Shown here one piece after another: positions 21,267-24,476 of a stretch of DNA of 64,000 nucleotides (positions within the stretch are counted from its first letter, which is position 1; each line of letters starts with the position of its first letter). This DNA comes from Gordonia jacobaea. Its GTDB lineage: Bacteria > Actinomycetota > Actinomycetes > Mycobacteriales > Mycobacteriaceae. Under the pieces are notes generated by a model. That model did not search any database, was not told the DNA's origin, and worked only from the letters and a program-made list of their open reading frames with translations. Where the stretch lies: positions 124,001-188,000 of the forward strand of contig NZ_LDTZ01000019.1 in the NCBI RefSeq assembly GCF_001186365.1, read 5' to 3'. Both the position numbers and the translations under genes were made by a program.

Positions 21267-21716
21267 TCAGTGCGCGGAGAAGACCGCCAGTTCGCCCGCG
21301 CTGATCTGGCCGTTGATGCCGTCGCGACGCAGGCCGCGGAACCCGCCGACGACGAACACAGCACCACTGACACCGCGTGCCTGCAGGTGCCAGGCCAGCC
21401 ACTCGGCCTCGTGGCCGTCGTCGCTCACGACGACCCAGCGCCGATCGGCGGTTGCCGTGCGCAGCGAGGTCGGTGAGCCGGGGGTCAGCAGGTCGAGCGC
21501 TTCCGCGGCGTCGACCGCCAGCGCACCGAGCAGCGCGCCGTCGAGCCTGCGCTTGCGGTGACTGCGGATGTCGACCGGCACTGCTCCTGCAGCGATCGCG
21601 GCGCGGTAGGCCGTGGGCTGAAGCGAGAGCGGAACGTCGGGGACGGGCTGTGTGACCGGCGCCTGTGCGAAAGAGTGAACCTGGACCAGTGCGTTAACCA
21701 GCGGTGATGCGGTCAT
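21267..21716 (-). CDS. Rhodanese-like sulfurtransferase domain protein
   Basis: 149-aa single-domain rhodanese-like protein: PVDIRSHRKRRLDGAL opens the fold and WLAWHLQARGVSGAVFVVGGFRGL closes it. The active-site loop expected around VVVSDDGHEAEW has Asp-Asp rather than a catalytic Cys, so classic thiosulfate sulfurtransferase activity is doubtful. The start at 21716 has GAGG upstream. It is preceded by an 11-codon cysteine-rich leader ORF (21785-21820), implying control by cysteine supply. Downstream of coaX on the same strand. Confidence 0.75.
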   Translation of the reverse strand: MTASPLVNALVQVHSFAQAPVTQPVPDVPLSLQPTAYRAAIAAGAVPVDIRSHRKRRLDGALLGALAVDAAEALDLLTPGSPTSLRTATADRRWVVVSDDGHEAEWLAWHLQARGVSGAVFVVGGFRGLRRDGINGQISAGELAVFSAH

Positions 21717-21784
21717 GAGAGAAACCTCGAGAGTGATCGAAACGAGCGGGGGGCGTCGACGAAGGGCGGCCGCATGATGCGGAC

Positions 21785-21820
21785 TCAGCCCTGACAACAC
21801 TCCTGACAGCTCTTGATCAC
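21785..21820 (-). CDS. Cysteine-rich leader peptide upstream of the rhodanese gene
   Basis: GTG-initiated 11-codon ORF reading MIKSCQECCQG, then TGA; three of eleven codons are Cys, two adjacent. It ends 68 nt before the rhodanese ATG. A possible -10 (CAAACT/AAACTT) lies 6-7 nt upstream, so the GTG may be the first base of the transcript. Published work on mycobacteria shows short leaderless polycysteine ORFs acting as cysteine-responsive attenuators of downstream sulfur genes; this ORF fits that pattern. The function here is inferred. Confidence 0.7.
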   Translation of the reverse strand: MIKSCQECCQG

Positions 21821-21925
21821 GGCGACAAGTTTGCCACAGTGCACCGCCGCGGGCCATGCCTGCGGGAGTTTTGTGCTCGCGGCGCGCAAAAAGAAGAAGT
21901 TCGACGCCGCGCTGGGCGTGCCAGG

Positions 21926-22735
21926 TCAGCGGCTCCCGCGCCCACGGCCCTGCTGTTTGGCCCGCTCGGACACCAACCGGAGCCCCTCGAGAGTCAGATA
22001 CGAGTGGTGCGTGGTGAGCGTGCGGCTCTCCGGGAAGATCAGCGGTGCCAGCGACCCGGTCGCCACGACCGTCAGATCCCGGCCGTCGAAGCCGTCGACG
22101 GTGCCGCGCACCCGGTCGACGAGTCCGTCGACCTGCCCGGCGAATCCGTACAGGATTCCCGACTGCAACGCTTCGACGGTGTTCTTGCCCAATACGCTGC
22201 GCGGAGGCATGAGCTCGACGCGGCGAACTGTCACCGTGTGCTCGGCGAGGGCCTCGACGCCGAGGTTCACTCCGGGCGCGATGGCACCGCCGAGGAACTC
22301 GCCCTTCGCAGAGACCGCGTCGACAACTGTGGCCGTGCCGAATGCGACAACGATGCACGGCCCACCGTAGATATGGTGCGCGGCAAGACAATTGGCAACA
22401 CGATCAGTGCCGACCTCTTTGGGGTTGTCGACGAGCAGCGGAACCCCGGTGCGCACACCCGGTTCGAGGAGCACGTGATGGACGCCGTCGTAGTAGCGCG
22501 AGACCATGACACGGAGCTCGCGCAACAACGCCGGCACCGTCGACAACGCGGCCACGCCGGTGATCTGCTCGATGTCGCCGCCGAGTAGCCCGCGGATCGC
22601 CATCGCGAGTTCGTCGGCGGTCAGGTGTGGGTCGGTGTGAATCCGCCAGTCCCGCACCAGGGTGGCGTGCTCACCCGACCCCGCGAACACCCCGAGATGG
22701 ATGTTCGTGTTCCCGACCTCGACGGCGAGCAGCAT
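21926..22735 (-). CDS. coaX: Type III pantothenate kinase
   Basis: 269-aa ASKHA-fold kinase phosphorylating pantothenate, first step of CoA synthesis. VEVGNTNIHLGVF is the phosphate-1 motif, VGTDRVANCLAAHH and VAFGTATVVDAV the adenosine/phosphate-2 region, GGAIAPGVNLGVEAL and VVATGSLAPLI follow. The ATG at 22735 lies 7 nt after the panD stop. Conserved neighbourhood coaX-panD-panC as in mycobacteria. Confidence 0.95.
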   Translation of the reverse strand: MLLAVEVGNTNIHLGVFAGSGEHATLVRDWRIHTDPHLTADELAMAIRGLLGGDIEQITGVAALSTVPALLRELRVMVSRYYDGVHHVLLEPGVRTGVPLLVDNPKEVGTDRVANCLAAHHIYGGPCIVVAFGTATVVDAVSAKGEFLGGAIAPGVNLGVEALAEHTVTVRRVELMPPRSVLGKNTVEALQSGILYGFAGQVDGLVDRVRGTVDGFDGRDLTVVATGSLAPLIFPESRTLTTHHSYLTLEGLRLVSERAKQQGRGRGSR

Positions 22736-22742
22736 CGACGAC

Positions 22743-23195
22743 CTACACCGTTGAATCTGCGAAGTCGGTTCGCGCCGAGTCAGTTTCGGGGTGGCGGGGG
22801 TCCAGCAGTCCTGATCCTTCTGGTGCGTGCGCGGGATCTGTGCCGTTCTCGACGACGCGGTTGGCCTCGTCGACGAAGACCACGTGCGGGCTGTAGGCAC
22901 GCACCTCCGCTTCGTCGAGGATCCCGTAGGCGATGATGATCACCAGATCACCGGGATGAACGAGATGTGCTGCCGCGCCGTTGATCCCGATGACGCCGGT
23001 ACCGCGGTCGCCCGCGATCGCATAGGTCTCGAGACGGGCGCCGTTGGTGATGTCGACGATGGTGACCTGTTCGCCTTCGAGAAGGTCCGCGGCGTCGAGC
23101 AGGTCGGCGTCGATGGTCACCGACCCGACGTAGTGCAGATCGGCCTGAGTGACGGTCGCCCGGTGGATCTTCGACGTCATCATGGTGCGAAACAT
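22743..23195 (-). CDS. panD: Aspartate 1-decarboxylase proenzyme
   Basis: 150-aa pyruvoyl enzyme making beta-alanine. Self-cleavage occurs at the Gly-Ser of [12 protein letters not shown] (residues about 23-25), generating the pyruvoyl group; [11 protein letters not shown] and [13 protein letters not shown] complete the fold. The tail after about residue 115 is a longer acidic extension. Starts at an ATG at 23195 with a second in-frame ATG pair (MFRTMM). Upstream lies a 366-bp repeat-filled gap before panC. Confidence 0.95.
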
Positions 23196-23252
23196 GCTGT
23201 CATTCCTCTGTGTTGGCGTGCATTGCGGGCGGGCTGCAGAGTCTGTGGGGGC

Positions 23253-23456
23253 GTGATCTCGACAAGCTCGATCAACGGGGAACGGCGCTCGATCAGCGAG
23301 GGGGTGATCTCGACAAGCTCGATCAGCGGGGAGCGGCGCTCGATCAGCGAGGGAGTGATCTCGACAAGCTCGATCAGCGGGGAACGGCGCTCGATCAGCG
23401 AGGGCGTGATCTCGACAAGCTCGATCAACGGGGAACGGCGCTCGATCAGCGAGGGG
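23253..23456. repeat. Four tandem 51-bp repeats between panC and panD
   Basis: Units begin at 23253, 23304, 23355 and 23406, each containing GATCTCGACAAGCTCGATCA and a second GCTCGATCAGCG. Differences between units are a few substitutions. The array occupies the middle of the 366-bp panC-panD gap; the remainder holds the panD upstream region and one further repeat (23477-23518). No spacers are present. Related sequence recurs at 36704, 45368 and 49982. Confidence 0.92.
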
Positions 23457-23476
23457 CGGCGAATCCTTGGCCCGCT

Positions 23477-23518
23477 GGTCGAGCGGGCGCGAGCGGAGCG
23501 AGCACCCGAGTCGAGACC
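23477..23518. repeat. Dispersed GC-rich repeat element (GAGCGGAGCGAGC type)
   Basis: GGTCGAGCGGGCGCGAGCGG and the following GAGCACCCGAGTCGAGACC form an element internally symmetric around GAGCGGAGCGAGC. Sequence of this style is widespread between genes in related actinobacteria; it directly follows the 51-bp array. Confidence 0.5.
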
Positions 23519-23561
23519 ACTCTCCGCCGCCGCGAACCCGACCAGCGAGAGCCGGTGCGGG

Positions 23562-24476
23562 TCAGTACGCATCGGGATTCCCGATGTCCTCGGGCTCGAT
23601 GCCGATCGATACGCCGACGTTGTCGATCAGCCGCGCGGCGCCGAGGCGGGCGGCGACGAGCAGGCGTCCGTCGCCCTTGTCGGGCGCTTCGCCGAGGGCG
23701 CGGTCGCGTAGCGCGAGGTAGTCGAGTTCGATGTCAGGCGACGTCGCCAGAACCGCTTGTGCGGCAGCGAGAATCGCGTCCTTGCCGCCGGGGGCGGCGT
23801 GCGCTCCTGCGGTGAGCGCCGCAGACAGCGTGGTGGCGATCTCCCGCTGCTCCGGTGTCAGGTAGCGGTTGCGCGACGACAGCGCCAGGCCGTCTGCCTC
23901 GCGCACCGTCGGCACCCCGACGATGTCGACGTCGAGGTTGAGGTCGGCGACCATCTGCGCGATCAACACCAACTGCTGGTAGTCCTTCTCCCCGAAGAAC
24001 GCGGCGTGCGGTGCCGCGATGTTGAGGAGTTTGCACACAACGGTCAGCATCCCCGCGAAATGCCCCGGGCGCACTGCGCCGTCGAGGATGTCGCCCGCCG
24101 GTCCCGGCACGATCGTGGTGCGCGGCCCAAGTGGATACATGTCGTCGACGGTCGGCGCGAACACCAATTCCACACCGGCGGAACGCAACAGCTCGATGTC
24201 GTCGTCGAAGGTCCGCGGGTATGCGTCGAGGTCTTCGCTCTCGCCGAACTGCAGCGGGTTGACGAAGATCGACACGATGACCACCACGTTGCCGACGCTC
24301 TTGGCGGCGTCGATCAACTGCAAGTGGCCCGCGTGGAGCGCACCCATCGTCGGTACCAACGCCACGCGCTTACCCGCGCGACGCAACGCCTGACTGACCC
24401 GGTGCAACGTCGCAGGGTCGCGATGCACCGTCAGTTCACCTCGGGCGTAGGCGTCTGGACTCAGCGGCGCGGTCAT
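23562..24476 (-). CDS. panC: Pantothenate synthetase
   Basis: 304-aa ATP-dependent ligase joining pantoate and beta-alanine. [14 protein letters not shown] contains the HIGH-like motif, [39 protein letters not shown] and the KMSKS-equivalent [10 protein letters not shown] are all present. The ATG at 24476 has GGAGGAG upstream. Sixty-eight bp after the Rossmann protein gene on the same strand, followed by a repeat array before panD. Confidence 0.95.

Follow-up and report, generated by a model that had tools for sequence, protein, structure and literature searches.

A conserved cysteine-codon leader ORF upstream of a rhodanese-fold gene in Gordonia jacobaea and of dioxygenase genes in related genera: a putative cysteine-responsive attenuator

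Between coaX and the gene of a rhodanese-like protein, Gordonia jacobaea carries an open reading frame of only 11 codons, three of them for cysteine, which raises the question whether so short a frame is a gene and, if so, how it might act on the gene behind it. The locus was analysed within a window of 64,000 nucleotides, by which we mean the whole stretch of DNA examined. An earlier note on this DNA had described a frame MIKSCQECCQG with a GTG start located 68 nt 5′ of a sulfur-protein gene, and re-reading of the minus strand confirmed all of these points. The frame extends from 21820 to 21785 (GTG ATC AAG AGC TGT CAG GAG TGT TGT CAG GGC TGA), and exactly 68 nt lie between its stop codon and the ATG at 21716 of the next gene. 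The features of the locus, in the direction of transcription, are as follows.

21926..22735, minus strand: coaX (type III pantothenate kinase), the upstream neighbour
21828..21833, minus strand: -10-like hexamer CAAACT, part of the conserved TGTGGCANACT; 7 nt separate the end of the hexamer from the GTG
21785..21820, minus strand: leader ORF (V/M)IKSCQECCQG-stop, GTG to TGA, 11 codons, 3 TGT cysteine codons
21815..21820, minus strand: 5′ arm of the basal stem, GUGAUC, including the leader start codon
21770..21782, minus strand: apical hairpin CCGCAUCAUGCGG, just 3′ of the leader stop
21733..21738, minus strand: GAUCAC, 3′ arm of the basal stem, followed after 4 nt by the Shine-Dalgarno (SD) motif
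21725..21728, minus strand: SD-like GAGG of the rhodanese-like gene
21267..21716, minus strand: orphan rhodanese-fold protein, 149 aa, zero cysteines, Ser98 in place of the active-site Cys
21423..21425, minus strand: Ser98 codon, in the alignment column of the rhodanese catalytic Cys

The search for cysteine leaders upstream of orthologues that the earlier note had suggested was run in Gordonia and was anchored on the orthologue first, the upstream region being inspected only afterwards. It yielded a leader before the rhodanese-like orthologue in 25 of 25 sampled genomes, G. jacobaea included, with Cys8 and Cys9 invariant and Cys5 retained in 24 of them. The start codon is kept as GTG or ATG and the stop alternates between TGA and TAG and is never missing, while residues 6, 7, 10, and 11 vary (Q/R/L, E/K/M, Q/R, and G/R/S, respectively) around the constant CysCys. 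Column identity amounted to 0.93 across the leader compared to 0.53 at positions -45 to -20. All cysteine codons of the Gordonia leaders are TGT except for one TGC; among the genes of the window, TGT accounts for 19% of the cysteine codons (23/124). Judged by this comparison of sequences, the leader ORF at the locus is real and not a chance frame. The nearest named relative is G. sputi with 94% identity, and all named relatives found belong to Gordonia. Longer in-frame upstream starts of the leader were ruled out, as conservation begins at the GTG. An in-frame fusion, in which the GTG inside GGAGTGTTG would open into the main ORF, was likewise ruled out for Gordonia, as the distance between leader and gene is not conserved modulo 3.

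The arrangement in front of the leader is equally regular. A hexamer of the form [TC]A...T is located exactly 7 nt 5′ of the start codon in 23 of the 25 Gordonia genomes and at almost no other spacing, and outside Gordonia the same 7-nt spacing was observed for 38 of 42 leaders. An SD-like motif upstream of the leader was detected in none of the 25 Gordonia genomes, in agreement with the statement of the earlier note that there is no room for a ribosome-binding site before the GTG. A -10-like hexamer at fixed spacing and the missing SD together predict that the transcript is probably leaderless.

The gene behind the leader encodes a protein of 149 amino acids with a Pfam rhodanese (PF00581) score of 15.8 bits, which is below the gathering cut-off of 22.2. 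Nevertheless, the rhodanese fold is clear in the AlphaFold2 model (pLDDT 84.8), which matches rhodaneses at Z 14-16; the highest VIA Z was 16.5 (2hhg, 4.8 Å, 117 aligned), and 3tp9 matched with Z 14.7 and 2.0 Å over 100 residues. The suspicion that this protein lacks the catalytic cysteine proved correct, since the active-site position is Ser98 here and Ser or Thr in every Gordonia orthologue examined. In the orphan rhodaneses of other genera the active site is mostly Ser or Gly, with Cys retained in few. Sulfur-starvation proteomics of Rhodococcus lists rhodanese changes, none of which could be assigned to the leader locus (PMC8557817).

The leader is found far beyond Gordonia. A search of 301 genomes from the GTDB family detected the pattern CNGGAGTGTTGTCNNNGCTRR with the core QECCRG-stop in 175 of them, representing 18 of 31 genera, and nearly always in a single copy; the reversed pattern used as control gave 0 matches in the same genomes. 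For comparison with Gordonia, 60 further leader regions were retrieved and parsed. These leaders usually comprise 11-13 codons, end in a nearly invariant QECCRG, contain only two cysteines each in many genera, and are highly conserved in the nucleotides of their core. The core is absent from the sampled members of Mycobacterium, a genus recognised by its PPE proteins (34 or more in two members). Neither a scan with the Rfam covariance models (no match up to E 1) nor the NCBIfam HMMs NF042933, NF042934, and NF042936 (against which five leaders were scanned in an in-frame extended form, the peptides of 11-13 aa being too short alone) gave a match to a known family, and our literature search found no report of a QECCRG-type leader, which is not proof of none. 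By its sequence, the leader family looks like an undescribed cysteine-sensing switch: the principle is the ordinary one of the known mycobacterial kind, and the leader itself is real, new, and widespread.

Which genes does it usually precede? The leader lies directly 3′ of coaX in G. jacobaea and in most family genomes checked. Outside Gordonia, the next gene usually belongs to the cysteine dioxygenase family; PF05995 identified the dioxygenase in 35 of 49 genomes, in many of them right after coaX and the leader. The dioxygenase gene is commonly succeeded immediately by an active rhodanese whose VCSEGYTSS active site is intact, and a tree splits these partner rhodaneses from the orphan ones. 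Leader and downstream gene, be it the dioxygenase or a rhodanese-fold gene, are on the same strand and 39-111 nt apart, and in many genera the dioxygenase begins only 39-42 nt beyond the leader stop. Gordonia and some other genera carry the dioxygenase and partner rhodanese at a different site, and their leader precedes an orphan rhodanese-fold gene. The relocated pair of G. jacobaea is on contig C3 at about 520022-520807, and a search upstream of its dioxygenase gave no clear leader. From its spread over genera, we infer that the dioxygenase arrangement is ancestral.

The relocated operons of some other genera are preceded by different short candidate cysteine leaders, namely at L129 and L130 (genus g26) and L126 (genus g32), for example VNAHQMPLWNRMCCR and ...GPAGSCCRRI, which end about 33-43 nt before the gene. 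In other families of the order (L029, L031), the candidates AVDLLRVAACACPRS and TIDLLLVASCGC, which resemble the DLxRVAxxxC leader type, are located at dioxygenase-family genes or ahead of them. Two genomes of genus g22 (L060, L061) share a short conserved frame, VIRLCGRCCRT(A/E), that has no evident sulfur gene behind it.

The substrate of the dioxygenase bears on the expected direction of regulation. By sequence, the nearest solved enzyme is the ergothioneine dioxygenase of Thermocatellispora with E 4e-18 compared to 2e-8 for cysteine dioxygenase, and by fold, ergothioneine dioxygenases score Z 17.8-18.9 compared to at most 15.2 for cysteine dioxygenases. An ergothioneine dioxygenase has been described alongside a second enzyme of ergothioneine breakdown. 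These similarities in sequence and fold are suggestive of a role in salvaging sulfur from another thiol such as ergothioneine. On the other hand, Arg70 of the dioxygenase is invariant, the aligned residue in the solved ergothioneine dioxygenase is Ser, and Arg70 presumably corresponds to the substrate (cysteine)-binding Arg of mammalian cysteine dioxygenase. The leader-linked dioxygenases contain only 2 cysteines in 8679 aa, compared to 0.84% Cys in the genes of the window. This depletion was considered as a sign of expression under starvation and discarded as uninformative, as the relocated dioxygenases without a QECCRG-type leader are likewise almost free of cysteine.

We next consider how the leader RNA might fold onto the downstream gene. 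Outside Gordonia, the leader stretch GCAUGAG pairs with CUCAUGC, a sequence spanning the start codon of the dioxygenase (or rhodanese) gene. Standard pairs were obtained at 346 of 371 positions, a value reached by 0 of 2000 shuffles (shuffle mean 336) in a test that is inflated by the kinship of the sequences. Matched changes (GCACGAG/CUCGUGC and GCAUGGG/CCCGUGC) represent covariation in this pairing. A second pairing is formed between the leader stretch CCAGGAGUG and CACnUCCUGG around the SD, and the leader end is closed by a hairpin GUCGAGGC/GCCUCGAC. For the dioxygenase type, the computed accessibility of the start codon is 0.08 when the RNA is free, rises to 0.46 when a ribosome covers CysCys, and amounts to 0.28 when the ribosome is at the stop codon. 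Accessibility of the SD runs opposite, with 0.30, 0.12, and 0.22, respectively; no conserved sequestering structure that would explain the lower SD accessibility was found for the ribosome-stalled state of this type.

The Gordonia leader RNA adopts a different shape and is predicted to form one long hairpin with the basal stem GUGAUC/GAUCAC. GAUCAC ends 2-4 nt 5′ of the SD in most Gordonia genomes, every position of the basal stem shows a standard pair in 36 or more of the 38 aligned sequences, and compensatory changes occur at two loci (L019, L033) where the leader starts with GTGATG or ATGATC. Much of this stem is unable to vary, since it carries the start codon. The RNA at the locus of the window is only moderately more stable than its shuffles (z -1.9), and the computed accessibility of SD and AUG in Gordonia is the same in the free and the ribosome-bound state. 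The stretch between leader and gene is C-rich, and a search of the minus strand revealed no intrinsic terminator in it.

Taking these findings together, we propose, with a probability of roughly 0.65, that the leader is a leaderless, cysteine-codon, translation-coupled attenuator of the next gene that is ON when Cys-tRNA is scarce. With the -10 element ending 7 nt before the GTG, the transcript would start at the start codon or within one nucleotide of it, and ribosomes would load directly on the 5′ end and translate the TGT and TGTTGT codons. Without a ribosome on the leader, its mRNA would fold back on the start region of the next gene: GCAUGAG would hide the start codon via CUCAUGC in the majority of genera, and in Gordonia GUGAUC would pair with GAUCAC immediately 5′ of the SD. 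Scarce Cys-tRNA would slow the ribosome at the cysteine codons, keeping the leader unpaired and allowing translation of the downstream gene. Because the computed SD and AUG accessibility in Gordonia is unchanged by the ribosome, the block in this genus would have to be steric. The earlier note had assigned the leader to the mycobacterial cysteine-responsive attenuators; the leaderless cysteine-codon leader in this assignment is well supported by the comparison (fixed promoter spacing, 0/25 SD, CysCys near the stop), and a response to cysteine is what the assignment predicts.

Do other explanations account for the same data? The conserved stretch might be a DNA site or an antisense or UTR element in which the ORF is incidental, as the very high nucleotide conservation could suggest; however, the stop stays TGA or TAG and the start GTG or ATG, the CysCys codons never change in the set anchored on the orthologue, and the promoter keeps a fixed spacing to the start, all of which makes this barely credible. 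A sequence-specific arrest peptide, with the nascent QECCRG stalling the ribosome, would fit the nearly invariant C-terminus outside Gordonia, yet we regard it as very unlikely because in Gordonia residues 6, 7, 10, and 11 vary while CysCys stays, and the fixed nucleotides outside Gordonia are also explained by the hairpin at the leader end. If, alternatively, the position of the leader ribosome set the exposure of the untranslated stretch to early termination, by Rho or another transcriptional route, the C-rich intergenic stretch of Gordonia and the missing intrinsic terminator on the minus strand would be understandable, and Rho was proposed for the mycobacterial cys leaders by Seliverstov 2005 (PMC1262725). 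We consider this improbable, though, as the conserved pairing aims at the start codon or the SD neighbourhood, which points to translation, and the 39-42 nt available in many genera are short for a Rho site.

The strongest objection concerns the sign of the response, since inducing the dioxygenase at low cysteine would be a waste if cysteine itself is its substrate. In the opposite case, the leader would be completed at ample cysteine and thereby promote downstream translation by reinitiation or leader occupancy, so that the dioxygenase is ON at excess. Membership of the usual target in the cysteine dioxygenase family would suit a catabolic enzyme, and the invariant Arg70, the short distance from leader stop to dioxygenase start in many genera, and the reduced SD accessibility with a ribosome at CysCys relative to free RNA all point in this direction. 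Against it, accessibility of the start codon peaks with the stalled ribosome, the alternative pairing of the SD lacks conservation, and the mycobacterial precedent ties elongation speed at cysteine codons to downstream regulation. Moreover, the nearest solved structures are ergothioneine dioxygenases, for which induction by starvation would be sensible, as it would not be for direct cysteine catabolism. An inverted response is thus unlikely in our judgement, if far from negligible. For the family as a whole, we hold it slightly better than an even bet that a cysteine-codon RNA switch acts on a thiol-dioxygenase/rhodanese operon, serving either salvage (e.g., of ergothioneine) when ON at scarcity or breakdown when ON at high cysteine, and in Gordonia on a rhodanese-fold protein without catalytic Cys.

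The closest known systems to the proposed attenuator are leaderless ORFs with cysteine codons in M. smegmatis and M. tuberculosis (PMC4633059; PMC9094748). In M. smegmatis, as summarised in PMC9031893 with reference to Canestrari 2020, such ORFs regulate downstream genes by attenuation. The mycobacterial polycysteine sORFs (Canestrari 2020; Shell 2015) include those of cysA2/Msmeg_5788, Rv0485/Msmeg_0932, and nirA/Msmeg_4527. Leaders of mycobacterial cys operons had been noted in 2005 (PMC1262725). Common to these sORFs and the leader described here are the shortness of the ORF, a predicted leaderless start (hexamer at 7 nt, without SD), adjacent cysteine codons near the stop, and a co-directional sulfur gene downstream without an intrinsic terminator. 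In contrast to them, the peptide is QECCRG or IKSCQECCQG with no NCBIfam leader match for the forms scanned, the target is a thiol dioxygenase plus rhodanese or an orphan rhodanese, the pairing with the downstream start is conserved, and the leader is absent from the sampled Mycobacterium. The families leader_Ms5788A (NF042933) and cis_reg_atten (NF042934) are likewise cysteine-rich leaders, but the QECCRG type is separate in sequence. More distant is the cysS leader uORFC-8-2 of Rhodobacterales, which also has tandem cysteine codons and a proposed regulation via Cys-tRNA but, unlike the Gordonia leader, possesses an intrinsic terminator and controls a cysteinyl-tRNA synthetase (PMC8632094). 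The LEU element of actinobacterial leuA resembles our system in that regulatory codons pair with the SD region and a terminator is not needed, and differs in its leucine codons, its pseudoknot, and its target leuA (PMC1262725).

If the proposed reading is correct, a widespread family of cysteine leaders outside Mycobacterium would be linked to a thiol oxidation operon and not to cysteine synthesis. The sign of the response would in turn inform the role of the dioxygenase: ON at starvation would favour sulfur salvage (e.g., ergothioneine), whereas ON at excess, if true, would represent a cysteine-codon attenuator for catabolism. The leaders also constitute a large set of genes of 11-13 aa that are likely missed by standard gene finders, and in Gordonia a rhodanese-fold protein would have been retained under leader control after loss of its catalytic Cys.

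Two further observations were made in G. jacobaea. A second leader, MQLRRELLLTRRRAIDFCRVADCCCL, reached an NF042933 score of 34 bits, under the cut-off of 45, and is related to leader_Ms5788A. It is of the leaderless type with a TACCCT hexamer and precedes a rhodanese with two domains and a length of about 294 aa (locus L077, contig C2, upstream of about 287985). Within the window, tandem repeats at 23180-23572 between panD and panC, which were read as an n-fold protein unit of 17 letters, are apparently an intergenic repeat array.
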